Of a DNA stretch of 64,000 nt, positions 5,820 to 46,301 are shown one piece after another; positions within the stretch are counted from its first letter, which is position 1, and every line of letters begins with the position of its first letter. The position numbers and the translations under genes are program-made. The notes under the pieces were generated by a model. The model was not told where the DNA came from, made no database searches, and saw only the letters and a list, made by a program, of their open reading frames with translations. Origin of the DNA: Ulota crispa (Eukaryota; Streptophyta; Bryopsida; Orthotrichales; Orthotrichaceae); the NCBI GenBank assembly GCA_963920765.1, contig OY987246.1, forward strand, positions 10,536,868 through 10,600,867, read 5' to 3'.

Positions 5820-6174
5820 TGTCAATTTCATAAAACTTGGCTTTACAGAATTTGATTATCAAGAAATTTTAGATTTGAGTTGCGATTTTCTATAGAACAC
5901 ATTGGGTTTTTATCATTTTATCTGAAAGTACAAGGACCACCTTCGCTTTTTTGGTTTTCAAAATGAAAACTTCTAAAAAGAATTGGTTTCCAAATTTCAT
6001 TCATGTTGAGAGACACCCTAGAGTGCAAAATGTGTAATTGTGACCATGCTCCAATGTGGTATATGACATGGCAAGTGGGTTATGTCTCAAACCTTTGAAG
6101 GTTATAGGTTGCTCCCATGGGTGTATAATCTTTATAATAATTAGATGTTGGAAGGGAATAGTGAGGACATTTAA

Positions 6175-6400
6175 CCCTTAAATGTTTGAAGGATCCTTTG
6201 CGGCAGGTATAATACAAGGTATTTTTTGTGTGTTTGTAATGAATCCAGACCTTTACTATATTTGAGATTAACAAAGAAGCTAAAATACATATCAATGCGG
6301 TTCTAGTGAGATGTTTGAGATCCCAAATTAAAACTTCTTGTTGGTAGTAAATGTCAATTTTATGACAATGTATCTACTATCCCCATGAGACATTTAAGGA
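6175..6400 (+). mobile_element. TTAA-bounded MITE, family 2, copy a
   Basis: Flanked by TTAA at 6171-6174 and 6401-6404. Ends are CCCTTAAATGTTT and, inverted, TCCTTAAATGTCT. The 226-bp body shares blocks with the elements at 42361-42586 (opposite orientation) and 43916-44142, for example TTTGAGATYAACAAAGAA and GAGATCCCA..TTAAAA, so this is a true dispersed family of constant length. Non-coding. TTAA target specificity is known for piggyBac and Sola3 type transposases; no transposase is present here. Confidence 0.8.
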
Positions 6401-6404
6401 TTAA

Positions 6405-7362
6405 ATTGCATTAGGAGAACAAGATCATTTACCCATTGCAAGGGTGGGGTCACTTTGTTCCATGTTCACCCCTCAAATATTACATCTCCCTCTTTTGTGT
6501 GAATGTGCTCTTGACTGTGGGGGTGTACATACTATTGCATGGATTATATTTTAAACTTCTTTGGTACTAAACTCCAAGACACCATAAATCAACAAATTAT
6601 TTGCCAAAAATGTCAAAAAATTGTTGACTTTGAATGCGAATCACTTGCTTTTGGCAAGCAATAATTCCAATTTGATTTTGTAAATTTCATCCTAAGACCT
6701 TTGTACCTATTGTTATAAATAATTTCAACTTTTTAAAGGGTACTCTGAACAGCTTGTATAGTCGTTAGGTCTTTCATTTATGTTATCTTAGCACCGTAGC
6801 AAGGTTATGTTTTATACCTCACGTTTTCATTCACCCTTGGTGTGTGAGTGTACCCATCTTGAGGATCCTCAGGAAAGGGTGTGGCCATCTCTGAAATCTC
6901 CTCCTCTGGTGATGAAACTGATGATGATGATGATTTGGTAGATCTGGAGAGAGCATGATTCATGAAAACTGTTCTGTTTAGTACTGGTTGTGCCTGAGTG
7001 TGCAATTATGCAGTCACCTGGCCAGGGCTAAGTGGACACAAATTGACACAGAAGCGGCGTTGCGGAGGCCGAAACGAGCACCGCAGTCCGTCTCCTTTGT
7101 CGGTCGCTGTGGGGAACAGGCAAGCTAATATTAGTGTCATGAAAAGAGCGTGGTCTCTACTCTAAATAATGCATTTAGGTTGTCTAAACAATGAGGTTGC
7201 CTTTGCCTTAGAAATGTTGTCACATGACACAATGTTTGACCACTTGGAGGCGTATGGGGCTCTTAAGAAATCAAAATTTCACATGCTTTACAGTCTAGAC
7301 ATCATTAGTTTATTAGTTTATTTTTTCATAAAGTAGTTGTTATTGTCAAATCTTTATTATAG
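6405..7362. other. Gene-free AT-rich DNA
   Basis: No gene or clear repeat boundary recognised. A minus-strand frame near 6805-7005 has a short acidic Ser-rich stretch but no family resemblance. Confidence 0.4.
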
Positions 7363-7576
7363 TTAATCCCTAAATACCCAAGGCTGATTTTCTTGTTTTT
7401 GGAAGGTAATTTTGAAGCTTTTGAATTGTGGATGTAAGATCATTCTTAAACATCAAAACAAAATAATAGCCGTAGGATCTTTCACTTCAAGGCTTGTAGA
7501 CAATGTTGCCAAAAAAAAACCCCCAAATACGCCATGCAGATTTTAAAATATTTGTGATTGAATGTGAGTGAGTATG

Positions 7577-7854
7577 AACCTCATATTTAGCAAAATGGGA
7601 GTTTTCCATGGAAATGAGAGGTAATGTAAAGGAAAGTCAACGAAAGGTTTTATGTCAATTCAACTTGATTTGAGTTGAATTGACATAAAACCTTTCAAAT
7701 TTTACCTAAAATTAGAAGGTTTTACTGCAATTTAGGTCGACTTGACCTAAATTGCAATAAAACATTTCAAAACAAACTTGAAATTTAAAAGTTTTATGTC
7801 TCCTTTGGTTATTTTGGGAGGTGTCCAATCTCCCATTTTGTTGAATATGAGGTT
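7577..7854. mobile_element. Fold-back MITE with 4-bp TSD (TATG)
   Basis: Ends AACCTCATATTTAGCAAAATGG and, inverted, AACCTCATATTCAACAAAATGG. Direct TATG flanks both sides (7573-7576, 7855-7858). The interior contains a second near-perfect palindrome around GGTTTTATGTCAATTCAA. Related in end sequence and TSD length to the element in PRODH intron 1 (55326-55645). Confidence 0.75.
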
Positions 7855-8368
7855 TATGGAATTTTTTGGTTTTTTTGAAGCTGCCCAAAACTTCTAATCA
7901 TGATTGTTGCATTGGACTGCCCATCCATCCGCTTGCTCATATGCCCAAAGTGCTCAGTTGAGGTCATGATCTAATGAAGTCAAGTCATAGTTGATTTCAA
8001 AAAATGGTACAAGATGATAAAAAAACTTACTTTGTACATGCTAGAGACACTTATTGTTACCAATATGAACTCAAAATGTGGATTCAAAGCCATATTACGT
8101 AATAAAAATGGAAAATGATAATTTGACTCTTCTATTTTTAGGCCCAAAACCTTTTAAAAATGCCTTAAAAAACACATTGTAGCAACATGTCCGTTTGTGC
8201 TATCTTTTTTGTGCTTCCTCCTATGTTGTCCAATAGCCAAAACTCTCTTGAAATAACAACCACACTTTTGATAGAAATTAGTAACTTTTGGATACAAAAT
8301 TGGGTTATAACCACTTATGATGGTTTAATGTTTCTTGTTGTTACTTGAAAACTAAAGGCTTCCCTTCC

Positions 8369-8532
8369 CACAAGAAGATAAACATGCAATAAATAAGTAG
8401 GTCACAATAATTGCACAACAATTGAACAACTATACAATGTCTATGCAACAACTACAAAATGACTCAATTACAGTCATGTAGATGTTCACAATTGTTGTGA
8501 CCTAGTCATTTTTGCATGTTTTTCTTTTAGTG
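8369..8532. mobile_element. CACTA-like MITE, TSD TCC
   Basis: Begins CACAAGAAGATAAACATGCAA and ends with the inverted partner ...CATGTTTTTCTTTTAGTG, flanked by TCC on both sides (8366-8368, 8533-8535). CAC..GTG ends plus a 3-bp TSD fit CACTA (EnSpm/CMC) elements; at 164 bp it is non-autonomous. Confidence 0.65.
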
Positions 8533-8869
8533 TCCAAATCCATGACCAAAATTTCACAAATGAGCCTGCAATGCAATTGTCAAAGCTCAAGTGCCTAATA
8601 CAAAGAAAAAAATTGAGTTCCAAGTATTGACTAAAAATCAATATGAAGGAAAGAAAAATTCAATTGTGAATGAACTCTAGTTTGTGTCTCATAAACATTT
8701 CGAGTCAAATTAATGCAAAAGCACATTTGGATTTTATTAGACAATGGATATTTGGGAGAAGGGCCCTTAGTGCTCAAGGAAGTGCCTAAGGGAAATCTTC
8801 ACTTCATTCTCAATTTGTTGCTCACCTTTCCAATGTGACATCTTGTCATAAGCTCTTTACACTAGAAGA

Positions 8870-8998
8870 AATCTTGCATTAAACGACTGGTTCACAACGA
8901 CTAAAAATGTCCTAAACAACTCAATTTGAATGTAATGTAGTTGTTGTTTAGTTGTTTAGGACATTTGCAGCCGTTTAGGACATGGTTTTCTTCTAGTG
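8870..8998. mobile_element. CACTA-like MITE, TSD TTA
   Basis: Perfect ends CACTAGAAGAAA and TTTTCTTCTAGTG with TTA duplicated on both sides (8867-8869, 8999-9001). Internal short repeats of the type TTGTTTAGGACAT recall the sub-terminal repeats of CACTA transposons. 129 bp, non-coding. Confidence 0.75.
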
Positions 8999-9441
8999 TT
9001 AATTAGTGACACTATTCATCACATTTTTGGTGCGTAAGAGGTATCCTAGTTTAGCTTCCACCAAAAACAACTGGAATAAGGTATCGAGGACATTAAAATT
9101 GAACATTAAAGCTAACTTTAGCTTGAAAACTCTCTAAAAAAAAGACCTCAAGATAGTCAAATCTTTGCCTTTAGCATGGTTTCAAAGTTTCTTGAATACT
9201 CAAATTGGGTGCTTTGGGCATTTAGGGGTTAAATTGTTTTTATTGCAATAATTATTGATTATAATTATTTTGATATTAGTAAATATTTATTTTGTGAAAA
9301 ATGTCAATAAATTAGTGTGGGGCTTGTGGAGTTGTTGATTGATACAAGTGGCGTTGGAATTTTGTAAACTAATGAAAATAGCTTCTTTTTAGAAAATTGC
9401 TTTTCATTTTCTATTATTATTGAGAATGTCAGATTCAACTA

Positions 9442-9660
9442 AGGTAGGAGCACCCAATACCAACATTGTATCTAATTGCGTCATTCTATACACAAGGTGG
9501 TCATTCTAGAACTTCAATCTAAGTAAACCAGAGACAACTTATTGATGTTAACCAAAATGCTAAGCTATCTATGATTTACCTAGATTCCAATTCTAGAGTG
9601 ACCGCCTTGTGTAGAGAGTGATGCCATTAGGTATGTTGTTGGTATTGGATGCTCCTACCT
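9442..9660. mobile_element. TA-flanked AGGTAG-end MITE (copy a)
   Basis: Ends AGGTAGGAGCAYCCAATACC in inverted orientation, flanked by TA (9440-9441, 9661-9662). Shares its body with the more decayed copy at 16972-17191. Confidence 0.75.
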
Positions 9661-9662
9661 TA

Positions 9663-10725
9663 TATATGTACACATATTTTGGATGAGCCTTTGCCATAAT
9701 CTTATCCCATTCAAACACCGCTTGCTTGACGCATTAAGAGTATCTTTTGCCATCCATGAAATGAGCTCTAGAAACAGATTTATTGTCAACCCATAACGGC
9801 TTGCAAATTTTGAGTTGTTGATGTGCAAGTGCTAGGCCTCCAAAATCAGACATAGCCACATCAAATTCTAGCCTTCAACAAGCTTCCTTCACAACCCTCT
9901 CACGCACTATTCACGCATGTGAAAGCCACAAATTGTCACAACATAACTCTCCAACCAGGTGTACTTTTGTGGCATGTTCTAACTTAGGTGCAAGCCATGA
10001 ACTTTCTAGGCTGCATGAGAGTTTCAAGCCATGCCCCACCACTTCATGCAAGTTCACGCTACTATCCCAGCCTTTGGAAACTCATTTGATGTGATTTGGT
10101 GAAACCAGTGACATGAGATGCTCTAAGTGCATCCTCAACCTACTTGGTAAACAAGCCCAATGGCTAAACTTGATCAATTACCAAACATATAACAACATTA
10201 TGAAAAGAATTTTTTTGAAGGGATTTGAAATTTTTATTAAAAGAAAGCAAGAAAACTTGGATTTAGATATTGGTTGATTTAGATATATCCTATCAAATTG
10301 AGAGCTCTCCAAATCTAGCCCAATAAAAGAAATTCAACTAGAGGGACATCATAATTGTCACATTTTGTTGTGTTTTCGGCTAATTTTTTTTGTTCTTGGT
10401 CTTGATTTGGAGAGCCCTCAAATGTTATTGAAAGTTACTTAACATATGATGGGATGTATCTGAATCACCTAAAGTCAAAACTCAAGTTCCCTTACGATTT
10501 TGCAATGAAAATTTCAATGCACCTCAAATTATGATAGTTTCACATTACAACTTTTTTTCTACTAAAAGATGAAGTATAGCAAATTGGGACCAATTACCAA
10601 TTGTTTTATGGATGCTCAACACTATGAGCACTATTAAAATCGGATGGGAAAATGGCAGAAAAATGGTAAATTACCAAATTCCTCTAAACAAAACACTAGG
10701 TTTGCCAATACTTGATATGAAGTTA
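9663..10725. other. Gene-free AT-rich DNA
   Basis: About 1 kb with no recognisable gene, tRNA or clear repeat boundary. Confidence 0.4.
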
Positions 10726-11034
10726 GGGAAAATCTCATGGACATCCTTGTAGATTGCAATATTTACCTAGGTTATTCTGTTTTTTCAAAAATCACACAAA
10801 TAATCTTGGACCAAAATTTTCAAGCATTTGTTCTATTGTGCATGTCACTTCCCTTCTTCCTTTATGTGCATGCAAAACAAGAAAAAATAGTATGCAGACA
10901 AAGGGAGAAGGAAGTGACATGCACAATAAAACAAATCTCTGAAAATTTTGATCCAAAAACATTTGTATAATTTTTGAAAAAGCAGGGATATCTATGTAAA
11001 TATTGCAAACTATAAGGATTTCCAAGTTCCTAAA
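10726..11034. mobile_element. Decayed Mutator-like fold-back MITE (relative of 30234-30521)
   Basis: Begins GGGAAAATCTCATGGA and contains, inverted at its far end, the same TTTGCAATATTTACATAGATATCC(C)TGC block as the element in the oxidoreductase intron at 30234-30521. A nested palindrome GCATGTCACTTCC...GGAAGTGACATGC fills the middle. The flanking duplication is no longer clear. Confidence 0.55.
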
Positions 11035-11348
11035 ATTTAATATAATAGTTATGCCTAGTACTATGGATGAACATGCAAGCATAGATGGTTCAATCCGGTG
11101 AATTCTAACTTGCATTCATTTTGGGATGCATGGGCCTTGAATAATGAGGGTTGCTTTACAGTAGGTGTAGAGGCTGTTTTAGAGCCATATCAGGTTCCAG
11201 TCCTTGCCACTCATTTCTTCAAATTCTCCAACAAGTACCAACGTTTTACACAAACAGTCCAGGCCAAATTTTTTGGAAATTTGTATTTAATATTGAAAAG
11301 ATAAAATCTTGACAAGGTCCCAATACCAAGTGTTGGGTTTCTCCAATA

Positions 11349-11662
11349 AGGTAGCCACACCCATAACCATCATTGTATCCATAACCACCACCTTTGGAAT
11401 TTTCAAAAATTTGTGGGAGTAAATAGATGCAATGACAAGGATGTACAATATGTGAACGTGGAACCTTAGTGTTGGTTATGGGTGCAATGGCAGTTTGTTT
11501 TTTAAAAATTCACAGCTTATTCTCACAATATCCAAATAATACATTTGAAAGTGCAAACTTGTTATTTTTTTGTTGCTAAAAGGATCTTATAATTTGCTAA
11601 ATGTTTATTAATAATCATCATGTTCAAAACCCTTAATTTGATGGTTATGGGTGCTGCTACCT
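11349..11662. mobile_element. TA-flanked AGGTAG-end MITE
   Basis: Inverted ends AGGTAGCCACACCCATAACC / AGGTAGCAGCACCCATAACC with flanking TA (11347-11348, 11663-11664). 314 bp, non-coding. Same terminal signature as the elements at 9442, 15336, 16972, 53420 and 61093. Confidence 0.75.
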
Positions 11663-12284
11663 TAATGAAATGTCAATTCATGACATTGGTGTCATTGTCA
11701 AAATTCATAGAAATTCAATTAGGTCAATAAAAGTATAATTATGTTCTATTAGGATGATCAACGCTAGATGATGGATCTGAAATCTTGATAGTTATACTTG
11801 GTTACCTTCTTCATTCCTTCCCTGCTAAGTTTTTTAAGGTTAAGAGCATCTTCTGTAACCTTGCTATTATCTAGGGCCCTTGAATTCCTCTTTGTCCATT
11901 TAAAAAGAGATGATCACTTGTATCTCCAATAGTGCAACTTGCTGAATATAGTGCCAAACAATCACAAGTCAGGGAATTTTCAAAAGCAATAAAGTAAGTT
12001 ATGACCACAAGAAAATATAGCTTATAGAGGGTTTAGAGACCCCTTCAAATATGGCTTATTTGAAGGGAGAAGGTAAATATAGAGGCTAATACCACTAAAT
12101 TGATTGCTTTTCATCATGATGTCAAAGAGGTCTGAACATTTGGAGGGTTGGAGGAGATGCTCTAATAATTATGGTCTCAAAGTTTTGGCTTGAAAATGTT
12201 TAAACACTAAAAAGAACCTTTGTTCTACTTTTATTTGAATGAATGCTTACTTTTATTTGAATGAATGCTTGAAGACATTCTTAA

Positions 12285-12507
12285 CCCTTGAAGGACCCTT
12301 GGACTTTGGAGCTACGGTACCAAATATGGTTGCAATTAATATTTAGAAGTTTGAATCAGTTAGAAATGAAGTGTTACAATCATACATATTGAAAGGTTGT
12401 ATGATGATGGATGCATAAAAAATTTGGAAAGCCCTCAGAACAGCTCAAAGACATACGTACATACAGCCGTACATACAGCTACAAAGGGCTTTCAGGCGGT
12501 TCAGGGG
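12285..12507 (+). mobile_element. TTAA-bounded MITE, family 1, copy a
   Basis: Flanked by TTAA at 12281-12284 and 12508-12511. Ends CCCTTGAAGGACCC and (inverted) CCCCTGAACCGCC. The body, with a CGGTACCAAATA block and a TACAATCATACATATTGAA block, recurs inverted at 35522-35773 and 44747-44970. 223 bp. Confidence 0.8.
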
Positions 12508-12675
12508 TTAAGATCTTCCGTGCTAAAAAAAATTGCGACTCTTGTGTAAAGTGGTCCTGAAGGAACAAAAGAACTTCTGCATTAGAAACCTTCAGCTGGC
12601 TGGCAGGTGGGATTTCTGCTTCTAGTGCTTATGTTTATTTCTATTTTTGGTTTGCAAATCGGAGGTGCTATGCGA

Positions 12676-12788
12676 TGGTAAATTTACTGACATGTCATTA
12701 TGTCAATCCCGCTAATTGTTTTGTGAGAGTCTTTAATTTACTGATATGTCATTATGTCTATTCCGCTAATTGTTTTGTGAGAGTCATT
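12676..12788. repeat. Tandem ~54-bp direct duplication
   Basis: Two adjacent copies of a block containing TTTACTGAYATGTCATTATG and CGCTAATTGTTTTGTGAGAG. A shorter ~23-bp tandem pair (TTTTATTTGAATGAATGCTT) lies nearby at about 12229-12270. Confidence 0.8.
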
Positions 12789-14213: not shown

Positions 14214-14249
<36 letters not shown>

Positions 14250-15333: not shown

Positions 15334-15335
15334 TA

Positions 15336-15562: not shown

Positions 15563-15564
15563 TA

Positions 15565-23237: not shown

Positions 23238-23241
23238 TTAA

Positions 23242-23591
23242 CCCTTAAAGGACGGATGGATCACCGTGGCTTGCCTTGCCTGTGGTAGTTTATAGTGTTT
23301 TGCACATGGGCACTAGTAGTATTGCTTCAAAAAGTTGGAAAAGTCAACAATGCATGGTGCCCTAATGAAAATTGCAAGAAGGGTAGTTTGGGAGCTAACA
23401 TCATGTTTTTGAATCTTATCACAAATTGGATTACAAAAAAAAAATGAATACATCTCAAGAGGTAATTTTTTGTCTTCCATGTGTTTATGGTCACTTCTGA
23501 AAAAAAATCAGATGAAAACGACTTTTTTCAGAATCACATAATATTTTTTCAAAGCTAAAGGACGTTTTCTGTCCTCCTCAACATTTAGGGG
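23242..23591. mobile_element. TTAA-bounded MITE (350 bp)
   Basis: TTAA at 23238-23241 and 23592-23595. Ends CCCTTAAAGGAC and (inverted) CCCCTAAATGTTGAGGAGGA; an AAAGGACG block near each end pairs internally. Shares its right-hand TTAA with the next element. Confidence 0.7.
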
Positions 23592-23595
23592 TTAA

Positions 23596-23673
23596 CCCTT
23601 GAACGCCCAAGATTTTCAAAAAAGCACTCAATTGAGGACACTTTTAGTCCCAGTTGCTTGGGACGTTCAGGGG
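23596..23673. mobile_element. 78-bp TTAA hairpin MITE
   Basis: TTAA at 23592-23595 and 23674-23677, ends CCCTTGAACGCCCAAG and (inverted) CCCCTGAACGTCCCAAG. It abuts the preceding element with one TTAA between them, as expected when a second element targets the TTAA made by the first. Confidence 0.8.
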
Positions 23674-23860
23674 TTAAAAGAACTTGATATACTATAGCTT
23701 ATTAAAATGTTGCCTTTTTGTTTAGTTTGAAGCAAATTCCTAGAAGCTCAAAAAAAGGTAGGACATTAAATGTTGCCCTTGAAAATTGCCCAAGCCAACA
23801 TGGTGCGCGGGGCGGGGCAAGGGTATGGGTCTGACCTTGTCGCATGACTGGTCGACCTTG

Positions 23861-24006
23861 TCTTGCATCCTGCATCCTGCATCTTGCATCCCGTGTCCTA
23901 CATCCCGCATCCCGCATCCCGTGTCCTACATCCCGCATCTTGCATCCCGCGTCTTGCATCTCGGGTCCTACGTTTGGTGTCCTATGTTCGGCGTCCTATG
24001 TCTTGC
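23861..24006 (-). repeat. Minisatellite, left fold-back arm (short array)
   Basis: About 146 bp of imperfect GGGATGC/GGATGTAGGACAC units (read on the minus strand), degenerate toward the inner end. Confidence 0.9.
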
Positions 24007-24250
24007 AGTTTATACTAAGCCCGTTCTATTTAGAAAACCACTTGTAAGGGAGAGTGGGGGGTTTGTCCCATATTGTTTGGAGCTGGGGGTGAGTTACTTT
24101 GGGTACAAGAAGGGCCACTTGAGAGAGAAGAAATACACAACCTCATTTCTTTCTAAGTGAAAAATGTAGGGGAAATATCAAAAATGCCCCTCAATTCATC
24201 AAAAATATCAAATATAACCCCCAGAGATTTGAAATATATAAACACCCTTG

Positions 24251-24515
24251 AACACAATATTTGTTAATTTGGGATAAACACTTTCCCAAAATAGATTTTG
24301 GGATACTCAAATTTTGCATTTGTGAGAATATTTTGGAGATCTAAATTGAGTTTTTTGATAATTCCTTCAAGATGTTTCATCATTGATGTAAGGTCTCAAA
24401 GAAATTATAATAAAACTCAATCTAAATCACCTCAAAACTCTGAAAAATGAAAATTTCAAAAGTTCCAAAATCAAAAATATCTCCCAAACTAATGAATATT
24501 GCATTATGGCTTTGT
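24251..24515. mobile_element. AATATTTGTTAATTTGGG-family MITE in left fold-back arm
   Basis: Left end ACAATATTTGTTAATTTGGG and right end CCAAACTAATGAATATTG form a hairpin; the same element occurs inverted in the right arm (about 25168-25437) and as a solo copy in PRODH intron 3 (57304-57556), so it was carried into, or captured by, the large fold-back. Confidence 0.6.
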
Positions 24516-25675
24516 GTACAAATATCAAAAATACCCTTGAATTTTTGTAAGAACATCAATTATATCCTTAGTTGTCTTTGAGGATATCATCAACACCGCT
24601 TGTTTTTTTGGAAGAATATAAAAAAACGCCCCTCCATTAATTTGAAATATCAAATATGCCCTTGTGTTATTTGAAATTTGAAAAGCTGCTTTGGTTTATG
24701 TAAGAATTTAAATCTAATAAACTAGACTATACTCTTATTTATCTTTGTAAACATCACAAATACCCCTAATTTTTGTGTGATTTTTTATTGAACCTTTTTT
24801 TTAAGTAATGAAATGACAACAAAAAATTCTATGTAATATATGGAATGGCGTTGACTTCAATAATCTTACATGCAAAATTCCTTTATATAGCTCAAAGACC
24901 TTGCATTCAACTCTTGTCTAACTTTGTAATTTCCATATTTTTCCTAGTCACTTACTGAATTTGACAATAAGAGGCACAAGAGAACTAAGGGCATGTTTGA
25001 TATTTCAAATAACACAAGGGCATATTTGATATTTCAAATTAATGGAGGGGCGTTTTTTTATATTCTTCCAAAAAAACAAGCGGTGTTGATGATATCCTCA
25101 AAGACAACTAAGGATATAATTGATGTTCTTACAAAAATTCAAGGGTATTTTTGATATTTGTACACAAAGCCATAATGCAATATTCATTAGTTTGGGAGAT
25201 ATTTTTGATTTTGGAACTTTTGAAATTTTCATTTTTCAGAGTTTTGAGGTGATTTAGATTGAGTTTTATTATAATTTCTTTGAGACCTTACATCAATGAT
25301 GAAACATCTTGAAGGAATTATCAAAAAACTCAATTTAGATCTCCAAAATATTCTCACAAATGCAAAATTTGAGTATCCCAAAATCTATTTTGGGAAAGTG
25401 TTTATCCCAAATTAACAAATATTGTGTTCAAGGGTGTTTATATATTTCAAATCTCTGGGGGTTATATTTGATATTTTTGATGAATTGAGGGGCATTTTTG
25501 ATATTTCCCCTACATTTTTCACTTAGAAAGAAATGAGGTTGTGTATTTCTTCTCTCTCAAGTGGCCCTTCTTGTACCCAAAGTAACTCACCCCCAGCTCC
25601 AAACAATATGGGACAAACCCCCCACTCTCCCTTACAAGTGGTTTTCTGAATAGAACGGGCTTAGTATAAACCGCA

Positions 25676-26190
25676 AGACATAGGACGCCGAACATAGGAC
25701 ACCAAACGTAGGACCCGAGATGCAAGACGCGGGATGCAAGATGCGGGATGTAGGACACAGGATGCGGGATGCGGGATGTAGGACACGGGATGCGGGATGC
25801 GGGATGCGGGATGTAGGACACGGGATGCGGGATGCGGGATGTAGGACACGGGATGCGGGATGCGGGATGTAGGACACGGGATGCGGGATGTAGGACACGG
25901 GATGCGGGATGCGGGATGTAGGACACGGGATGCGGGATGCGGGATGTAGGACACGGGATGCGGGATGCGGGATGTAGGACACGGGATGCGGGATGCGGGA
26001 TGTAGGACACGGGATGCGGGATGCGGGATGTAGGACACGGGATGCGAGATGTAGGACACGGGATGCGAGATGCAGGATGTAGGACACGGGATGCGGGATG
26101 CGGGATGTAGGACACAGGATGCGGGATGTAGGACACAGGATGCGAGATGTAGGACACAGGATGTGGGATGCAGGATCCAAGATGCAAGAC
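25676..26190 (+). repeat. Minisatellite, right fold-back arm (expanded array)
   Basis: About 515 bp of the same units, with a higher-order period of ~28 bp (GGGATGCGGGATGTAGGACAC plus an extra heptamer) that is nearly uniform in the middle and degenerate at both ends, the usual pattern of recent internal expansion. Confidence 0.9.
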
Positions 26191-26293
26191 AAGGTCGACC
26201 AGTCATGCGACGGGGTCAGATCCAGGCCCTTGCCCCGCCCCGCGCACCACGTTGGCTTGGGCAAATTTCAAGGGCAACATTTAACGTCCTGCC

Positions 26294-26528
26294 AATCAAA
26301 GCCTCAGGCATTTAGGGGTTGACCAAGCACAGGGCCTGAAGTAGTCCTAAAATCCATGTCCACTCTGACGTGGCTTACGTGGCGGCGTACGAGAGCCACC
26401 TCGGCAGAATCTGCCACCTAGGATTTTAGCATCCATGCGCCAATGCGGAGCACCCAGCAGTGGTCTTCGTGAATTCTCTGTCCACAGTGCCCAGAGCATG
26501 TTGTGTGGGCAGTAGTTCCGTGGCAGCA
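26294..26528 (+). promoter_or_regulatory. Proximal upstream region of the FAD oxidoreductase gene with two ACGTGGC motifs
   Basis: TGACGTGGC (26366-26374) and TTACGTGGC (26375-26383) sit side by side about 150 bp before the ATG. ACGTGGC is the core of G-box/ABRE sites bound by plant bZIP factors, so light, stress or ABA control is possible but unproven. A CATTTAGGGGTTGA end-like motif at 26309-26322 may be a decayed TTAA element terminus. Confidence 0.4.
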
Positions 26529-35517: not shown

Positions 35518-35521
35518 TTAA

Positions 35522-35773
35522 CCCCTGAACTTCACCAAAGCCCTTTGCGACCGTATGTATGGCCATATGTACAGACTGGCCATATGTACAGACTGGCCAT
35601 ATGTACAGACGTATTTGAGCTGCTCTGAGAACTTTTCAAAAAAAATTATGCACTTATCATTGTACAACCCTTCAATATGTATGGTTGTAACACTTAATTT
35701 CTAGATGATTCAAACTTCTGAATATTGGTAGTGACCGTATTTGGTACCGTAGCTCCAGAGCCCAAGGGCCCTT
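35522..35773 (-). mobile_element. TTAA MITE, family 1, copy b (right end damaged)
   Basis: TTAA at 35518-35521 then CCCCTGAACTTCACCAAAGC. Body is the inverted equivalent of 12285-12507. The other end stops at CCCAAGGGCCCTT without the final AGGGGTTAA, so it is truncated or mutated. It carries a threefold 17-bp tandem repeat at 35560-35610. Confidence 0.7.
35560..35610. repeat. 3 x 17-bp tandem repeat inside TTAA MITE
   Basis: Three exact copies of TGGCCATATGTACAGAC; other copies of this MITE have a single unit, so this is a local expansion. Confidence 0.9.
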
Positions 35774-36323
35774 CTGTATTCTTCATTTCATCAGATGTCG
35801 TTTTATCAAGTTTTCAAGCAGGTATGCAAAGGAGTTGAGCTGCAATATGCGTGTATATGTACATACATACATACTAGCACACGTACGTATATACATACAC
35901 AGGCTATATACGGATACGCGTATATAGACGCATACGCATACATGTGTATCTGAAAACTTACGAGAAAGACAAGGGTCTGCGGGAGTGAATGGGATGGATG
36001 TCTCGTCCGAGCCACAGTTCTGAATTATGACCCTTTCTTGACTGAGGAGTGAAGCCCCGAAAATTGAAGCTTGTGCAGATTTTTCGGCTCTGTAGCAGAA
36101 GATTAAATTTGGAATAAGTTTTTCGTTTATGTATGACAAATTCTATTCACATGCAATTACCAGGTCCCAGATCTGAGATTTGTGAAGATGTTCTGCAAAG
36201 GTTTAAACCATAAACCAAGATCTCTACTGAATTACCACACCAAGGGTATAGTCACTGACCTTGTTCGGTATTCTTTATTTCGATCTGCCCACCTCAGATA
36301 TAACTCCGTAGTTCAAGATTATT
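35774..36323. other. Gene-free DNA with simple TACATA/CGTATA-rich stretch
   Basis: A low-complexity purine/pyrimidine-alternating stretch spans about 35850-35945. No gene seen. Confidence 0.4.
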
Positions 36324-36498
36324 CATAACGTTCAGTAGCGCTTGGTGGCAGCGCCTCCCTCCAGATGAAATGGTGTGGAACATTTCACACCCATTTTTAG
36401 CTTGGGGACACTTGTCTGAAATTGTTAAAGAGTTTATAAAAGAAAGGCTCAATTTAGTGCACAGACGTCGATGTGAGGGCTAGCCATGTCAGAAAAAT

Positions 36499-36533
<35 letters not shown>

Positions 36534-37211: not shown

Positions 37212-37520
37212 GAGCCTCTCCACTGATTTGGACTCTTTCAAAGTTTTTCATTTGTTTTGTCCTTCCCTCAAGCCCCTTGATCTCCACCCATGCTCTTCAA
37301 AAAGGTGGCCTTGCACTTCAACAATCCCCATACATAATTCGTCAACCATTTATCAAAAAAAGTAGAGGATAAAGTTCACTAAACTTAAGATTAATGATTA
37401 GTGGCTTGAAGGGCCCTTACTAAACATGGTAGGACAAAATGTCTTGAAACGATTTTGAAGGGTTTTGAGATGGGCCTCAACACTTTACATCCAGTAGTGA
37501 AGTCACCGGTAAAGCCGCTC
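37212..37520. mobile_element. PIF/Harbinger-like MITE, TSD TTA (copy b)
   Basis: Flanked by TTA on both sides (37209-37211, 37521-37523). Body is homologous to 59587-59911: both contain GATCTCCACCCATGCTCTTC and CTTGAAGGGCCCTT. Ends GAGCCTCTCCAC / GAGCGGCTTTACC are diverged forms of GAGCATCTCCACC. Confidence 0.72.
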
Positions 37521-37807
37521 TTATGTGTCAAGGTCCCTTGGCAATATAAAACACAAAACAACATCTAAAAAACATAAATTATCAAAGAAACCACACTAAA
37601 ATTCAGGACAAAGAAAATGATAACATAAATCCTCCTTCTCTTCAGCAGAAAATATCAAACTGCAAACAAATTGCACACTGCGCTCGAAAATAGCGGAGGG
37701 CTCCCATCGCCGGTAGATTCACGCAAGTCACGGAAGTCCCTCGACCGAAATCAGCAGCAAAGCAACGAGGTCTCAGCCCCCGGAGGCCCGGAGTGATCAT
37801 GGCTGGC

Positions 37808-37813
37808 TATAAA
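37808..37813 (+). promoter_or_regulatory. Possible TATA box of secreted-protein gene copy 1
   Basis: TATAAA in GGCTATAAACGG, ~650 bp upstream of the ATG within the GC-rich conserved arm; the distance implies a long leader or a 5' intron, so this is tentative. Confidence 0.25.
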
Positions 37814-38455
37814 CGGACTCGTCGGATGCAAAACCTCACCTCACGTGGTCCACAGCGTCGGTCACGACATGCGCGGGTGCATGCCTTCCGTCCAGACTCG
37901 GGAGCTCTTTCGGCGGGACATGTCGCCGTTTCACATTCTCTCGTTTTAGATTTTGCGGCGCCCCAATATCAGGACTGCCTCGCGCGGAGTCTGTCCGTGA
38001 CCGTCCATCGCAGAGCGGCGCGAGTGGCCCGGCGGTCGCGCGACTCCGCCTCGTGCCAACCCGGCACCGATCGGCGAAATATCAACACCGTCGGAGTAGG
38101 ACACGAGCCACCCGGCCGCGGCGCGTTCCTCAATTCGGACCGCAAATCTCGCAACCGCGAGCTCGGATGTTCCGATGCGCCGTAGTCGACGAGGCATCGG
38201 CCCCTAACTTACAAAAGGCCTGGGCCGGCATTGCTCCTACACACTCCACAGTCGCTCTCCTTGCTATCATCATCGCCTCTCCGCTGCAGCTCTTCCCAGT
38301 GAGCTGGTGCTCGATCGTCACATCGCGGATCGACTTGGCACCTGCCGATCGCTCGCTCGCGGAATCGAAGCTCAGGTTCGGACCGGCATTGATTGTCTGC
38401 ATCATCGCCCGGTCGATCGAATTGCAGGCCCGGATCCACCACCACAGCTGCAGCC

Positions 38456-38773
38456 ATGGCGAACAGAGCCGGAGCGAGGAACGGCGCCGCGCTGGTGGCC
38501 CTGGCCGTGCTGCTGGCGGCGTCCATGCTCGCGGTGGGCGCGGACGCGAGCAGGTGGAGCCACAAGCACCACCACCACAGCCCTCCCGCACCGCCGGGCT
38601 TCGACCAGCCCGCGGCCGCTCCATCTCCGCCGTTCCTCGGCGACGGACCCGCCGCCTCCCCGTTCACTACGCAGAGCAGCTGGTCGGAGGGTCCCGTCGC
38701 GGCCCCGAGCTCTCCACTGCCGTGGGGCGGGGCGCCGGAAGCCGTGCCCTCTCTGGAGTCCGGACTCTACTAA
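38456..38773 (+). CDS. Small secreted His/Pro-rich protein, copy 1
   Basis: 105-residue protein. Residues 1-32 look like a signal peptide: a basic start (MANRAGARNG) then the hydrophobic core AALVALAVLLAASMLAVG, with cleavage likely near ADA-SRW. The mature part (~73 residues) has a His cluster (WSHKHHHHS), Pro-Ala-Ser runs (SPPAPPGF, AAAPSPP, AAPSSPLP) suited to hydroxyproline glycosylation, and no Cys. It could be an arabinogalactan-type cell-wall protein, a metal-binding wall protein or a peptide precursor; I recognise no named family. The ATG lies in excellent context (GCAGCCATGGCG). GC is far above the surroundings. The identical copy at 46302-46619 faces it across ~7.5 kb. Confidence 0.7.
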   Translation: MANRAGARNGAALVALAVLLAASMLAVGADASRWSHKHHHHSPPAPPGFDQPAAAPSPPFLGDGPAASPFTTQSSWSEGPVAAPSSPLPWGGAPEAVPSLESGLY

Positions 38774-39778
38774 GCTTCAACTGGAGGGACGTGCGGGAGT
38801 CGTCCTGTTCGTGGCGCATGCATGTGTCTCGTATCGTGTTGTCATGCAGCCCATGTCAGTTCGCCCGGATCCGATCTCCGACCAATTCGAGGAGGGAGTT
38901 GCGAGATGGGTCCAGAGGCGGGAGCGGCTGCCAACGTAACTTAGGTATCTGAGGAGCCGGCCGGCATCACCTGCGAAGGTATGCTCCGAGCTGGCGAGTG
39001 TTTAGTTTTCGAACATAGTGCGGCGGGTAACGTTAGCATAGACGGGCACCGGCGACGGTGCGTAGAGTAAGAAGTTAGAGGCGCAGAAGCAACGGCGGCG
39101 TGGGGCGGGCGGCTGGAGAGTCCTCCGATCCGCAATTCCGCATCCCGCGTGGTGCGGTGTTCTTGTTGGCTCGAAATGATATATAAATATGAACACCATG
39201 ATGCCTTCAGTTGGCATGTGCTTACCGGTATCATATCATGAACGTAGATGTCGGAATTGGGTGTCGTGAACTTAACGTGTTGGGCCTTGCACGCTGTGGA
39301 TGCTCTGCCTGTGTGTGTGTTGATGTGTGAGAGAGTGGGGCATGGAATGAGTCCGCCAATGTCACGGGCGTTGAATCCATTGGTGCATGAGGATGTCAAC
39401 CCAACAGTCGGTGGGAGTGCCGGACAGGAACGCCCGGCATGGGCGTGGAGGACACAGTGAGTAGTGAGTAGCCGCTGCGATGCCCTGGGACTTGGCAACA
39501 GGGTGAGGACTCCGGTGGGGTGGTGCAACCGCACGTGAACGGAACTGCGCAGAGGACCCATAAGGTTTGGCAGACTCGTACGGGACTGGTATACAAGCTA
39601 CCCTGCAAAATTTAGATGTCATGGGCTGTGATATGAACCAGGTGCGACCGAGAGCTTACCTGCTTCTCGACTCTCTGATCTTCAGATGCATTTAGTACCT
39701 CATGAGCCCGTATTGTCTCAAACTGAGAGCTGAATGTATTTTCATATTACTGATGTTTTTTTCATAGTTCACACCTAT

Positions 39779-39817
39779 TTCAAAACACTAGATTCTACTG
39801 CCTTGCACATTTAGGGG
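39779..39817. mobile_element. Half of a TTAA hairpin MITE (left arm)
   Basis: Ends CATTTAGGGG next to TTAA (39818-39821) and stops exactly at the hairpin loop; the complete 71-bp hairpin is present at the matching place in the right arm (45221-45291). Confidence 0.75.
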
Positions 39818-40022
39818 TTAATATTGTCAATATTGACCATATATAGTAGGATGTGATAGAATAGATAAAAAGGGGTGATACATGTATCAATTTCCATCAT
39901 CAAGAAGCAAAAATCTTTGAAGCTATGTGTTTGATATATTTTACAAAATTTCTATGAAGTTACCTTTGTTGCAAACATTGAAGTGACTTTAACATTCCAA
40001 CACTGCACTACCTAATATTATT

Positions 40023-40633
40023 TGTAGAATTATTGATTAAGGGTAGTCACAACACTTTCTTGGCCGGCTATGGTGAATGAGAACGCAAATGTGTTGCTTT
40101 GTTGTTGGTTGCCAGAGCTTCTATTGTGGTTAGCGTGCTAAACTTTGCACCGCCCCATTCTTCTCTTTGCGGGGTGAAGATTGGGGAGGTGAGAAGTTTA
40201 GCAAGAGAATTTTCACCTCTCGCAACCCACGTTTCACCTTGTTGTGCTTCTTTTTTTCGTCAATTGCATGCTCTTGTTGGTGGAGAGCGTAGTAAATACT
40301 ACATGTTCTGAAAGCAAGTAATCATTCCCCATTCTTATTCTCTAGAACAAACAAACAAGGTATCCCACCATCTTCACAAAGAATAAGCTCCTATTGGCTC
40401 CTCTTTTCTCTGCACAACTTCACAATCTCCTTTCTCTTTTCATTCTCCGAGGAGCCGTGACTACCTGTGTAAGCAAGAATTTTGATTAAAGAAATCCCTT
40501 TATGTTTAGTTGGAGTTTTGTTTGTTGCAATTAACACTAATTTTGTTATAGTATTAATAAGGGCAAGTAGCTTTCATAGTATATTGTGGTATTTTTAAGG
40601 CAATAAATGTTTAGATAAGTGCATTTTTTTTAA
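40023..40633. other. Spacer of inverted duplication, gene-free
   Basis: AT-rich with a GC-richer stretch near 40120-40260; nothing recognisable as a gene. Confidence 0.4.
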
Positions 40634-41043
40634 GGGAATTGATATGTGCACACCGGAGGGTTAATATTTGCACACCTCCTAGGGGTAAATTTTAGATTTC
40701 TACCATCAAAAAGCTGAATTTGAGATATTTGAATTCAGATTTTGGACTTAGAGACCATGCTTTAGTCTAGAACCATAAAAAATGTTGCAATTGAACAACA
40801 CTTGGTGAAAAAGCTTAGATAGGGGGAAAAGTGTTACTTTTACTTTTGTTTGTAAAAAAAGATGAGTTTTTTCATTAGAAGTTGTTCAATTGCATCATTC
40901 TTTATGGTTCTAGACAAAATCATGTTCTCTCAGTCCAAATCTGAATTCCAAATCCTCAAATTCAGCTTTTTGATGATAGAAATCTAAAATTTACCCCAAG
41001 GGGGTGTGCAAATATCAACCCCGGTGTGCACATATCAATTCCC
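40634..41043. mobile_element. Mutator-like fold-back MITE (GGGAATTGATATGTG family, copy a)
   Basis: Ends GGGAATTGATATGTGCACAC inverted; interior halves share ATTTCTACCATCAAAAAGCT. The flanks TTTTTTTAA and TTTTGTAAA could be a decayed 9-bp duplication. Homologous to 48354-48766. Confidence 0.75.
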
Positions 41044-41502
41044 TTTTGTAAATGAGAATGAGAAGAATTTTTCAAGTGTCATTCCAATTATACACAATAT
41101 ATATCCAATTTCCTTAATAATCAACCCCCGTCAGCATCTGAGGGGCCGCTTCCCTTCGTTTTGCGTACAATTTCAAGTACAAATTTAGAGAAGGGTTGAA
41201 GTAATATTGACATTAAACTCCTTTTAGTCACTTAACTTTGTTTTTCTAGTCTTTTTTTTAATTCATTTCATTAGGTAGAAAAACATTTTACTTAAAAAGT
41301 TTGAGTTATGTTCTGACTTTGAATTTAAGCTCGTGATTAAGTTTTATCTCATGTTACTAATTGTTACAAGAAACTTGTCAATTTTTTTTTATTATGCAAT
41401 AATTTAGTATATTAGTTGATGGATTTGTGGAGAATATAAATTTTGTAATAGCAGGTTGAAAGGTTATTTTTTAAGAATTTTGTGTTTCTTGCTCTAACTT
41501 AA

Positions 41503-42356
41503 CCCCTCAAAACTGCCATTTTCAGATATGAGATCCCAAGATAAATAAACTTATTTTTAGTACAAATCTAACTGCAGGATCTTACACAAGACTCATGCAC
41601 AAAGCCATCAACAAAATTTAGTGATTTCTGACCTTACGGATTGAGTGTTATTAACATAAGTTAGAGTATATAATCTTTTTGAACTTTGCCAAAAATTCTC
41701 AAACGCCTTTGACCACATATTATAATCATCATATGCAACATGAGCAATGTAGAGAATTGTTCAACATGCTCTAAATCATGTTAGGCATATTTTCACAAAT
41801 TTTCAATACCAACAAAGACATAGAACAAATCCTATGTGATCTTGCAGTGCAAACATGTCCTTGAGGTTCACATTATATTGGGATTTTTTGCAAACCAATT
41901 TTTTGAGGGTTAATTTTGAGTTACAAAACTTCAATTAGTACATTGGAAGAATTTACCTTTATTGGCAACCACAAATAATTTTGGTTAAAAATACCAAATC
42001 TCTAGTAGTTGTTGCATTTCAAATGACACCATATTTATCATAAACAATAATATATTTATCTAGTACACTATTGCTTTGGATGTACTCCAATGAAGGATCA
42101 TGCCTTCATTGTTTACTTTTGGGAGAAGTTAATGAAAAATGGTTTGCCCAAACTACCCCTTGAACAAAAAACCCTTAAAACACCAATAACTTTTGAATTG
42201 TAACTTTGATTTCAATATAAAAATTTATACTTGCATGTAGCCCTTGCAAAACTCTATTTCCAAAAAAATAAAAATAAAAAATGATCAAAAGTCCCAATAG
42301 AGTAAGCTTGCCTGAAAACTGTTTTGTCCTTTGTAGGAACTCTAGGCTTTTAGAGG
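41503..42356. mobile_element. Possible 854-bp TTAA element
   Basis: TTAA at 41499-41502 followed by CCCCTCAAAACTGCC, and TTAA at 42357-42360 preceded by inverted CCTCTAAAAGCCTAG. Ends match only loosely; the right TTAA is shared with the next element. No coding frame. Confidence 0.35.
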
Positions 42357-42360
42357 TTAA

Positions 42361-42586
42361 CCCTTAAACAACGAGAGGGCATTGTATATACACTGCCGTA
42401 TAATGGGCATTTGCTACCAACAAAAGATTGTAATTTGGGATCTCAAATAGCTCACTATGACCACATGGATCTATTCTCCAACTTCTTTGTTGATCTCAAA
42501 GGTAATAAAGGTGTGGATGCACTCCAAATACAAGAAAAATACATCATATTGTATTGATCGCAAAGGGCAGCCTCGTCCTTTAGGGG
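42361..42586 (-). mobile_element. TTAA-bounded MITE, family 2, copy b
   Basis: TTAA at 42357-42360 and 42587-42590; ends CCCTTAAACAACGAG and (inverted) CCCCTAAAGGACGAG. 226 bp, same length as copy a and in opposite orientation. Confidence 0.8.
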
Positions 42587-42590
42587 TTAA

Positions 42591-43915
42591 GAGAAGCCAT
42601 TCAATGAGCTTGAAAAGTCATTCTAAGATGCAAAGCCTAAATGTGATTTTATAAAAGGTTTCTTATTCACAATAGAAAAAAAAGCATGGTTCAAGTGTTT
42701 TTCTAAGTTTTCTATTGAATATCTATATTATTGCATCAAGTTTAAGGTGCATTATTTTTTGGATTTTTCATGACATTTACTTTCAAAAATTGTTGCACGT
42801 AATACGATTTGTCAGAACCTTCAATTTTTGGCAGAAAACTTTATTACAATGTCCATAATGTATAGTTGTCCTTTATAGACAACCAACAATGCAAATTTTC
42901 ACATTTTTTGTTTCTATTTAATTTTAAAAATTTGGAAAATATTAAAAAGTGAATGCTGAAGTTTACAAATACCACCAAATTTTTGAATGCATTGTGGCAA
43001 ACACAATTGTATTTTTAAACTGCACAGTCTTCACAAAAATCGAAAAATTAGAAAAGATTGAAAATTGCTAAGCTGGAAACTTGGAATCAATTATTATCTT
43101 GGTTAAGGCGTCAGAAATGAAGCATAAGTCCCTCAACAATGTAATCAAATTTTAAAATATGGTATTTTGCCTATGTAGATAATGGCGTATTATATTGTAT
43201 TACTTTGATTAGATACACTCCTTCTGTGTACCTTGTACTCAATGTACATAAATGAAAGTGATATTTTAATTCATAATTTAGATAATTTTTGTATGTCATT
43301 CTACTTGAAGGCCTACTCAAAAATATCCAATTCTCATTTAGACCTTTCTTGCACATACAATTTCTCATCAAATTTAACACTGACTACTTACAATAGTGCC
43401 TTGATATGATGAAGGTATTTGGACAACATATTCATTCCACGTAAAGAAAACATTCATTATAACTAAAAGATCTTTTGGAGCCTTCGGGGACAATCATTTA
43501 CTTCATCTTAATCAAGCATTTTTTCTTTTAAAAATTCATCTTAGCGAGGCACTATTGTATATGAAAGCCAACAAAGGGAGCCAAGAGTATTAAAATAAAA
43601 AATGTGTACAATCCACTATGCTTTTAATTCATGTTAGCACAATTTTCCGCCTACAACATTCCATGAGTGTGCCATGCCTATCAACGCCCATTGTCATCAT
43701 TTTAGTTGTGGACCACTCTTTGAAATTTGGAGAGTCTCATATTGTGGGAAGTGTCCTGTGGATTGCAAGAAGATTTTCAATGAATTGGTGATATACTTGC
43801 AGTGACATCAGGAGTCTTTCCATCATACAATGAACAATAACAAAAACAAATTGTCTCACTTCTTCAGTACACCTTCACAAGTAACATGTTTTGTTATTTT
43901 TTTTTCATCATGTAA
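42591..43915. other. Gene-free AT-rich spacer
   Basis: I see no gene or clear element boundary. Confidence 0.4.
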
Positions 43916-44142
43916 CCCTTAAAAGTCAAATAGGTCCTTTGCAACATGTACAATATGGGATGTTTTTCTTGTATTTGGAATATATCCACACCTCTACTAC
44001 ATTTGAGATCAACAAAGAAATTAAATATAGATAAAGGCGATTCTAGTGAGCTATTTGAGATCCCACATTAAAATTTCTTGTTGGTAGCACATGCCAAATA
44101 TACGGCAACGTATCTACTATGCCCCTTGACATTTACTAGGGG
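43916..44142 (+). mobile_element. TTAA-bounded MITE, family 2, copy c
   Basis: Right TTAA at 44143-44146; left side reads GTAA (43912-43915), a one-base change. Ends CCCTTAAAAGTC and (inverted) CCCCTAGTAAATGTC. 227 bp, body homologous to 6175-6400 in the same orientation. Confidence 0.75.
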
Positions 44143-44746
44143 TTAAATGTGTAGTTAGTTCAAAATATGGTGAAAAGTTGATTATGTGGGAAATGGCTGA
44201 GGAACAAAATATTCATGAAAACAACACTAGGCATGTGAAAATATCATAAGTGTATATTTTGCAAATACAATAGAACATTACCATAATTACACGCTACACT
44301 CATTGTCTTCTACTCTTTATGAATTAACTGCTTAATGTAACGTAAAAATTTGCTAACGTGATTATCAGATACGAAAGCTCACATCATGTGCAACCAATTT
44401 GTGCTCTTCTCAAAAATTAAGTTAACATGTTCTTGGAACTAATTAACTTTGTAGAGACACTTCCATAACAATGTTTACCAATATCAATCATGAAAAAGGT
44501 CAATTCTCACACCTACAGCTATTGAAAATTTACATGGAATAGCTAATTAGTGTAACTCAAATTTTGGTTAGCTTCAAAAATAAATATTAGAAAGGTGACG
44601 AATCATTATCCTGTTTTTACAAAAATAGTGTTCAAATCGATATTGTTCCCAACACATGTACACTATTTTACAAAAACAATGTACCCAAAAATGTCGTCAA
44701 CAAAACAAAATGCATAATACTTGGTAGTGGAGTGTTGGAAGGGTTA

Positions 44747-44970
44747 CCCTTGAATGGCCCAAACGCCCTTTGCTGCCATGTGTACGGTTGTATGTATAGA
44801 CATATTTGAGCTGTTTTGAGGGCTTTCCAAAAAAAATTATACACCCACCATCATACAACCCTTCAATTTGTATGATTGTAACACTTAATTTTCAATTGAT
44901 TCAAATTTTTGAATGTTGGTTGCAATCATATTTGCTACTGTATCTTCATAATCCAAGGGCCCTTTAGGGG
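44747..44970 (-). mobile_element. TTAA MITE, family 1, copy c
   Basis: Right TTAA 44971-44974; left flank reads GTTA, a near-TTAA. Ends CCCTTGAATGGCCC and (inverted) CCCCTAAAGGGCCC. 224 bp, same orientation as 35522-35773. Confidence 0.78.
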
Positions 44971-44974
44971 TTAA

Positions 44975-45045
44975 CCCCCAAGCGCCTAGGGTTGTCAAAT
45001 AAGATGGGAATCCGAACCATTTTGGTCCGCTTGGGGGCTTAGGGG
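44975..45045. mobile_element. 71-bp TTAA hairpin MITE
   Basis: TTAA at 44971-44974 and 45046-45049; ends CCCCCAAGCGCCTAGGG and (inverted) CCCCTAAGCCCCCAAGCG. Abuts the preceding family-1 element with a single shared TTAA. Confidence 0.78.
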
Positions 45046-45220
45046 TTAAAGTCACTTCAATGTTTGCAACAAAGGTAACTTCATAGAAATTTTGTAAAAT
45101 ATATCAAACACATAGCTTCAAAGATTTTTGCTTCTTGATGATGGAAATTGATACATGTATCACCTCTTTTTATCTATTCTATCACATCCTACTATATATG
45201 GTCAATATTGACAATATTAA

Positions 45221-45291
45221 CCCCTAAATGTGCAAGGCAGTAGAATCTAGTGTTTTGAACACTAGAATTTGGTATTGTGCGCATTTAGGGA
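45221..45291. mobile_element. 71-bp TTAA hairpin MITE (complete)
   Basis: TTAA at 45217-45220 and 45292-45295; arms CCCCTAAATGTGC and (inverted) TCCCTAAATGCGC continue through a CACTAGAWT stem to a TTTTGAA loop. Left arm of the duplication keeps only one half of this hairpin. Confidence 0.8.
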
Positions 45292-46301
45292 TTAAAATAG
45301 GTGTGAACTATGAAAAAAACATCAGTAATATGAAAATACATTCAGCTCTCAGTTTGAGACAATACGGGCTCATGAGGTACTAAATGCATCTGAAGATCAG
45401 AGAGTCGAGAAGCAGGTAAGCTCTCGGTCGCACCTGGTTCATATCACAGCCCATGACATCTAAATTTTGCAGGGTAGCTTGTATACCAGTCCCGTACGAG
45501 TCTGCCAAACCTTATGGGTCCTCTGCGCAGTTCCGTTCACGTGCGGTTGCACCACCCCACCGGAGTCCTCACCCTGTTGCCAAGTCCCAGGGCATCGCAG
45601 CGGCTACTCACTACTCACTGTGTCCTCCACGCCCATGCCGGGCGTTCCTGTCCGGCACTCCCACCGACTGTTGGGTTGACATCCTCATGCACCAATGGAT
45701 TCAACGCCCGTGACATTGGCGGACTCATTCCATGCCCCACTCTCTCACACATCAACACACACACAGGCAGAGCATCCACAGCGTGCAAGGCCCAACACGT
45801 TAAGTTCACGACACCCAATTCCGACATCTACGTTCATGATATGATACCGGTAAGCACATGCCAACTGAAGGCATCATGGTGTTCATATTTATATATCATT
45901 TCGAGCCAACAAGAACACCGCACCACGCGGGATGCGGAATTGCGGATCGGAGGACTCTCCAGCCGCCCGCCCCACGCCGCCGTTGCTTCTGCGCCTCTAA
46001 CTTCTTACTCTACGCACCGTCGCCGGTGCCCGTCTATGCTAACGTTACCCGCCGCACTATGTTCGAAAACTAAACACTCGCCAGCTCGGAGCATACCTTC
46101 GCAGGTGATGCCGGCCGGCTCCTCAGATACCTAAGTTACGTTGGCAGCCGCTCCCGCCTCTGGACCCATCTCGCAACTCCCTCCTCGAATTGGTCGGAGA
46201 TCGGATCCGGGCGAACTGACATGGGCTGCATGACAACACGATACGAGACACATGCATGCGCCACGAACAGGACGACTCCCGCACGTCCCTCCAGTTGAAG
46301 C

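Follow-up and report, generated by a model that had tools for sequence, protein, structure and literature searches.

TTAA-ended elements in the window and across the genome

The window, by which we mean the whole 64,000-nucleotide stretch analysed here (G000:C5:10536868-10600867, in a genome of 274.8 Mb and 157 contigs), carries short repeats bounded by TTAA and by CCC-type inverted ends, which we compared with transposons of the piggyBac superfamily. With 24996-26300 and 45050-47392 masked, TTAACCCY was found 23 times on both strands, whereas 30 first-order Markov simulations averaged 4.3 occurrences and never exceeded 10. Similarly, the window held seven CCC-type inverted pairs with TTAA flanks, 60-700 bp; 100 simulations averaged 0.03 such pairs, and none gave more than 1. 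These results confirmed that the TTAA-CCCY...RGGG-TTAA elements described in the original prediction, which was made from the sequence alone, are real and exceed chance.

Self-comparison and alignments revealed two families of miniature inverted-repeat transposable elements (MITEs), A and B, with three copies each in the window, together with three hairpins and one element of 358 bp. Two families and hairpins had been predicted, and both exist, but their lengths are revised here to approximately 231-235 bp for families A and B, with both TTAA counted, and to 79-86 bp for the hairpins; the 1.87-kb TTAA-ended element at 7363-9232 had gone unmentioned. The elements are as follows:

6171..6404, + strand: 234-bp copy of MITE family A; TTAA on both sides, right end AGGATTAA
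42357..42590, - strand: 234-bp copy of MITE family A; TTAA on both sides
43912..44146, + strand: 235-bp copy of MITE family A; GTAA on the left, TTAA on the right
12281..12511, + strand: MITE family B copy, 231 bp; TTAA on both sides
44746..44974, - strand: MITE family B copy; outer TTAA eroded, TTAA at 44971-44974 shared with the adjoining hairpin
35518..35774, - strand: copy of MITE family B with a short internal expansion; TTAA kept at 35518 and eroded at the opposite end
23592..23677, no strand assigned: hairpin element, 86 bp; TTAA on both sides, the left one shared with 23238-23595
23238..23595, no strand assigned: TTAA-CCCTTAAAGGACGG element, 358 bp; loci L048 and L039 hold elements of similar length and ends
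44971..45049, no strand assigned: hairpin element, 79 bp; 26 genome-wide matches including itself
45217..45295, no strand assigned: hairpin element, 79 bp, inside a repeat; paralogous empty copies elsewhere
7363..9232, - strand: non-autonomous deletion derivative of the transposase-bearing L067 element (see below), 1,870 bp; both ends kept, transposase region lost
41499..41913, no strand assigned: doubtful 415-bp stretch forming a weak inverted repeat, with termini TTAACCCC and GAGGGTTAA

One end was eroded in three of the six family A and B copies. Alignment gave the ends of these families as CCCCTAAAGG / CCCTTGAAGG, and their inverted repeats were imperfect (11/14 in family A, 9/14 in family B).

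The end consensus proved to be abundant when it was searched genome-wide, with 10,873 + 10,869 = 21,742 exact TTAACCCYTRAANGNCC ends, compared with 1 + 1 in the reversed control. The end core without TTAA occurred 13,006 + 13,128 = 26,134 times (control, 119 + 133 = 252), and 83% of these cores were preceded by TTAA. Ends in which a base other than T stood before TAA numbered 457 + 487 = 944 (control, 2 + 2), such that T preceded TAA in 95.8% of cases. At 175 places a single TTAA was common to two such ends (control, 0), which by a rough estimate is of the order expected from random TTAA targeting, assuming that about 0.56% of tetramers are TTAA. DNA searches with the two families returned at least 44 matches for A and at least 42 for B from 3,381 and 1,977 first-look candidates, respectively; these are lower bounds, since 40 candidates were scored for each.

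We next considered the flanks of near-full-length copies. Sixty loci were fetched, and the 65 copies whose match came no more than 4 bases short of either query end were retained. Exact TTAA was present on both flanks in 54 of them (29/32 for family A and 25/33 for family B, the two window query copies included), and the 11 exceptions were mostly one base off TTAA. When 34 A copies and 35 B copies were aligned, with the query copy present twice in each set, conservation of the TTAA columns was 0.86-1.00, compared with 0.46 or less for the four columns outside. The outer bases were themselves conserved, the left T at 0.89 (B) and 1.00 (A) and the right A at 0.86 and 0.94.

For an empty-site test, a single TTAA was placed between the two flanks of each candidate element, and the resulting junctions were compared with 339 kb of sequence. 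The junction was spanned in 28 rows, from which 16 pairs were inspected; the rest were mostly self-matches or further matches of L036 and L046. The pairs concerned ten filled elements, and L013, L036, L046 and L054 were dropped because the match entered the end of another copy or was unclear. Four of the six retained elements had one or more paralogous empty copies in which TTAA stood exactly once: 45217-45295 (a single TTAA in three of five copies, L055 twice and L008; TTAT in L025 and L002), L006 (one of one), L017 (one of two, the other TTCT) and L052 (one of two, the other CTAA). L024 (TTA- and TTCT) and L047 (TTAT) had none. This pattern fits TTAA duplication if some copies mutated later. 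Together, the genome-wide counts, the flanks and the empty sites bore out the strict use of TTAA that had been proposed and showed that this target is duplicated on insertion, as in piggyBac.

The window also has an inverted duplication of approximately 2.3 kb (37684-39993 / 45045-47392; 98% identical overall, 2092 of 2099 positions in the main block). Its inner end halts at the TTAA of 44971-45049, and only half of the 45217-45295 hairpin is present in the left arm. It is possible that gene conversion up to an insertion boundary explains where the duplication stops. In the left arm a single TTAA precedes a 27-bp stretch that agrees with the far flank at 24 positions. The arm may thus represent a natural empty site for 44971-45049 together with 44746-44974, a reading that is only suggestive because past TTAA the homology covers little sequence and falls below that of the arms.

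Transposase genes of the piggyBac type

The profile of the piggyBac transposase, PF13843, gave 120 matches in the genome, on contigs C1-C11, with a best E value of 1.3e-73 and all above the family cut-off. For this search 116 of 528 first-look candidates were scored, and some loci appear as two pieces. None of 14 control genomes contained a PF13843 match. Many matches were nearly full length; ten were free of stops within the matched stretch, and the others had at least one. The assignment was confirmed by hmmscan for all five frames submitted. In a phmmer search, one frame of 476 amino acids matched the piggyBac transposase of Trichoplusia ni (6x67; E 4.1e-20) and piggyBat (9c0f; 5.8e-17).

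Fifteen transposase loci were read for their ends. A search for a transposase between the same ends had been proposed, and in three loci PF13843 was indeed enclosed by inverted TTAA-CCCYT ends:

L067, C5:10867266-10873011: 5,746 bp; 19-bp perfect inverted repeat including TTAA, end CCCCTAAATGCCTAA
L070, C2:24506994-24512223: 5,230 bp; end CCCCTTGAGG
L072, C1:30793800-30799107: 5,308 bp; one mismatch in the left end

L070 and L072 are homologous from TTAA to TTAA (89-93% identical) and have different flanks, so that a whole transposase-bearing unit must have moved. When 1,343 bases of L070 were searched against the genome, the only matches were L070 itself, L072 and one 65-base fragment, and thus no young subfamily emerged. 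L073 is a relative of L067 whose right end matches and whose left end is eroded. Some of the loci without a clear end pair have lone TTAACC-like motifs nearby.

We also scanned the 15 loci for four motif patterns, three catalytic and one cysteine-rich. All four were present in L067 and L073. L067 keeps VDEMM, MDNFF, GVDVADQ and the cysteine-rich tail, the first two and the last two lying on either side of one stop; in L073 the patterns span a frame change. The remaining 13 loci have one to three patterns each, the missing ones being degenerate or outside the scan patterns. Amino-acid identity between loci, from summed tblastn pieces, was approximately 24-50% in most comparisons and 51-81% in closer pairs. 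Frames of 430 and 464 amino acids, rich in Q, E and R, are similarly placed upstream of the transposase frame in L067 and L073, and might form either an N-terminal exon or a separate gene. L068 (G000:C1:1180709-1181995) has two piggyBac-like transposase pieces with no stop in the matched stretches and no TTAA-CCCYT end pair in the flanks read, and is a candidate for domestication.

The bounded element L067 also connects the transposase to the window. Its first 105 bases match window positions 9232-9136 and its last 563 bases match 8752-7363; in all, five blocks are collinear on one strand, with unmatched stretches between them. The window element ends in TTAA followed by CCCCTAAATGCCCAAAG and TCCCTAAATACCCAAGG. 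Because the end blocks match collinearly and the ends are TTAA, 7363-9232 is a non-autonomous derivative of this piggyBac element. Genome-wide, 1,877 first-look candidates were obtained for the last 563 bp of L067, and the 40 that were scored were 86-100% identical.

Explanations for the repeats and their age

We consider it very likely that the repeats of the window are non-autonomous transposons of the piggyBac superfamily in a moss, in line with the original prediction of TTAA-specific elements, piggyBac or Sola3, in a plant; the PF13843 matches and the bounded transposase loci support this reading. In such a system, elements of 5.2-5.7 kb with CCCYT inverted ends encode a DDD transposase of the piggyBac type, which would cut elements at their ends and insert them at other TTAA sites, duplicating TTAA. 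Short derivatives that keep only the ends would be mobilised in trans and could thereby grow into large families. Some transposase lineage of this type presumably moved families A and B. In the known piggyBac mechanism, as given in a portion of PMC7351741, the ends are nicked, TTAA hairpins form, the gap can be repaired without a footprint and the element is joined to a new TTAA. The anatomy found here fits this scheme, and by analogy with the cabbage-looper enzyme the moss elements may use the same chemistry of hairpins and seamless excision.

Several observations weigh against this reading. Among the 15 transposase loci, 12 had no convincing TTAA-CCCYT pair (L073 has one end, and 11 have no clear pair; for five of the 11 the flank read was approximately 1.5 kb, and in those first five loci no TTAACC end pair was found). 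The left end of L072 reads CTCCT, and the transposase frames are interrupted inside all three bounded elements. Internal sequence of families A and B was absent from the four transposase-bearing elements compared, so that the tie of these families to piggyBac would rest on the target site and the end consensus CCCYTRAANGNC. Some empty paralogues read TTAT, TTCT, CTAA or TTA- in place of TTAA. An early pattern, TTAACCCYT with a second TTAA within 20 bases, was rarer than in its reversed control (1,172 + 1,178 = 2,350 vs 2,295 + 2,149 = 4,444); this pattern does not describe the element ends. Finally, TTAA pairs taken without the CCC criterion were not in excess in the window (10, compared with 21 for AATT and 25 for ATAT), which shows that the special feature is the combination of TTAA with CCC ends.

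The last observation, together with other long inverted repeats in which the window is rich, would suit hairpins or short repeats of other origin, satellite or foldback, that end in TTAA by chance. We regard such an origin as highly improbable: seven CCC-type pairs stand against 0.03 expected, empty sites exist, and full-length copies are dispersed among unrelated flanks. It is contradicted for families A and B, and 41499-41913 remains doubtful. The absence of A and B internal sequence from the four elements compared would instead agree with MITEs moved by a Sola3-type transposase, the piggyBac genes being unrelated residents. Sola3 is reported to duplicate TTAA, as the original prediction also states; it shares this target with the elements described here and has a different transposase. 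However, PF13843 proteins are encoded within elements that have the same TTAA-CCCYT ends (no search for Sola was made) and 7363-9232 derives from one of these, and we consider a Sola3 origin very improbable.

The elements also resemble Tourist-like (PIF/Harbinger) and Stowaway-like (Tc1/mariner) MITEs in being short, non-coding, of high copy number and inverted at the ends. Tourist-like elements duplicate 3 bp (TWA) and Stowaway-like elements 2 bp (TA); the duplication here is 4 bp, TTAA. Tourist-like MITEs are common in plants, and a 3-bp duplication of TAA or TTA could lie by chance within TTAA, an outcome that would have told against the original prediction. This is very hard to reconcile with 944 ends lacking the T compared with 21,742 that have it, and with a TTAA that is symmetrical on both flanks. 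The partner transposase that was found is likewise of the piggyBac type and of no superfamily such as PIF/Harbinger, for whose genes, as for those of Sola, no search was made. Tc1/mariner or Stowaway-like elements with ends ACCC...GGGT and a TA duplication would account for the TA within TTAA and for the symmetry of TA-ACCC...GGGT-TA, yet the outer T and A should then be unconstrained, and they are conserved at the levels given above. We give this explanation hardly any weight.

In the sampled best matches to the window copies, the median divergence from the family consensus was 7% for A and 11% for B, and the closest non-self pairs differed by 5.4% and 10.5%, respectively. Very recent bursts of A or B are therefore not supported, and the suggestion of an active or recent transposase is likewise unsupported, as sampled MITE copies differ by at least 5% and the frames of the three bounded elements are interrupted. 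Activity elsewhere in the genome is possible, because transposase stretches without stops exist. We tentatively suggest, at rather less than even confidence, that moss piggyBac is an old plant-resident radiation of many lineages, perhaps with an active member or domesticated genes, that supplies a main part of the MITE load.

Host genome and known piggyBac systems

Five of eight window frames tested had Pfam matches: two GT47 exostosin pieces, an FAD-dependent oxidoreductase, a GIL1/IRKI C-terminal domain, GIL1/IRKI being a plant gene, and a proline dehydrogenase. Scans of the window for Rfam families, at the gathering threshold, and for tRNAs gave no hits. A LEAFY gene was located in L078 via the SAM_LFY family, and its DNA-binding domain is identical at 104 of 106 positions to PDB 4bhk, named 'FLORICAULA/LEAFY homolog 1'; it is less similar to four other matched LEAFY sequences. 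Since 4bhk comes from the moss Physcomitrella patens, and the Asp in 'KMRDYVHCYALHC' is typical of moss LEAFY, this near-identity points to a moss host. The LEAFY SAM domain is matched at five places besides the true LEAFY; one of these, a weak match, lies in L077 (G000:C1:33973746 region), where an upstream frame by eye resembles a BED-type zinc finger.

Other repeats were also observed. A further MITE family, with ends GGGAATTGATATGTGCACA, lies at 40633-41043 and 48394-48767 and is nested within L067, where inspection by eye suggests an 8-bp duplication (TATATTTT); a comparison with L073 gave no alignment across this nested repeat. An 828-nt inverted repeat (23856-24683 / 24996-25823) is 99% complementary and adjoins a short-period repeat at approximately 25500-26300 that is open in three frames. 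A near-perfect hairpin at 52433-52670 has 117-nt arms and a 4-nt loop.

The moss elements share with piggyBac of T. ni the TTAA target and its duplication, CCCYT-type inverted ends, a PF13843 transposase that matches 6x67, DDD motifs and a cysteine-rich C-terminal tail. They differ in their apparent host, in the length of the bounded elements (5.2-5.7 kb, L067 with its nested MITE, compared with approximately 2.5 kb), in the approximately 24-50% amino-acid identity among most lineages and in the very large number of MITE ends. Terminal inverted repeats of piggyBac measure approximately 12-19 bp with CC[C/T]T, according to a passage of PMC2872659; L067 and L070 have such repeats, and families A and B have imperfect ones. 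The catalytic aspartates of the T. ni enzyme are listed in PMC7351741, in the part cited, as D268, D346 and D447, and the motif patterns of L067 and L073 correspond to such a triad followed by a cysteine-rich domain.

The nearest described parallel is found in the CMITEs of Acropora corals. In the section of PMC2872659 cited, these are piggyBac/TTAA MITEs with CCCTT-type ends that share a genome with full-length piggyBac, form tandem arrays and have an allele without the element, all as in the moss. They measure 96-108 bp, with an estimated 18 to 737 copies per family, compared with approximately 230 bp and more than 21,000 exact ends here.

The original prediction had placed such elements outside the usual repeat annotation of plants. 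This was right to the extent that no description of piggyBac transposons of a moss appeared in the titles and abstract openings of the papers listed by searches on piggyBac and plants or mosses, in which subscription journals are little covered. It was too strong for plants in general: extracts of the respective sources include a fern repeat table with 1,230 PiggyBac copies (PMC6890710), a review that counts PiggyBac among the plant superfamilies (PMC10794571), a mining paper stating that piggyBac has been isolated from plants (PMC10813416) and a survey that reports it in all groups studied, land plants named (PMC4438587). A paper on the moss Niphotrichum was rejected as a piggyBac report, since both matches in the text available were the word 'piggybacking'. 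What appears to be new here is the moss host and the scale; the superfamily itself is known, also in plants.

piggyBac is a leading transposon of genome engineering, known mainly from animals and little described in plants. The 120 transposase matches and more than 21,000 ends show its superfamily to have had great success in one land-plant lineage at least, and TTAA MITEs may be overlooked or misfiled in plant repeat annotation. The genome offers a natural collection of plant-resident piggyBac sequences, with which vertical and horizontal descent in mosses can be tested against each other.

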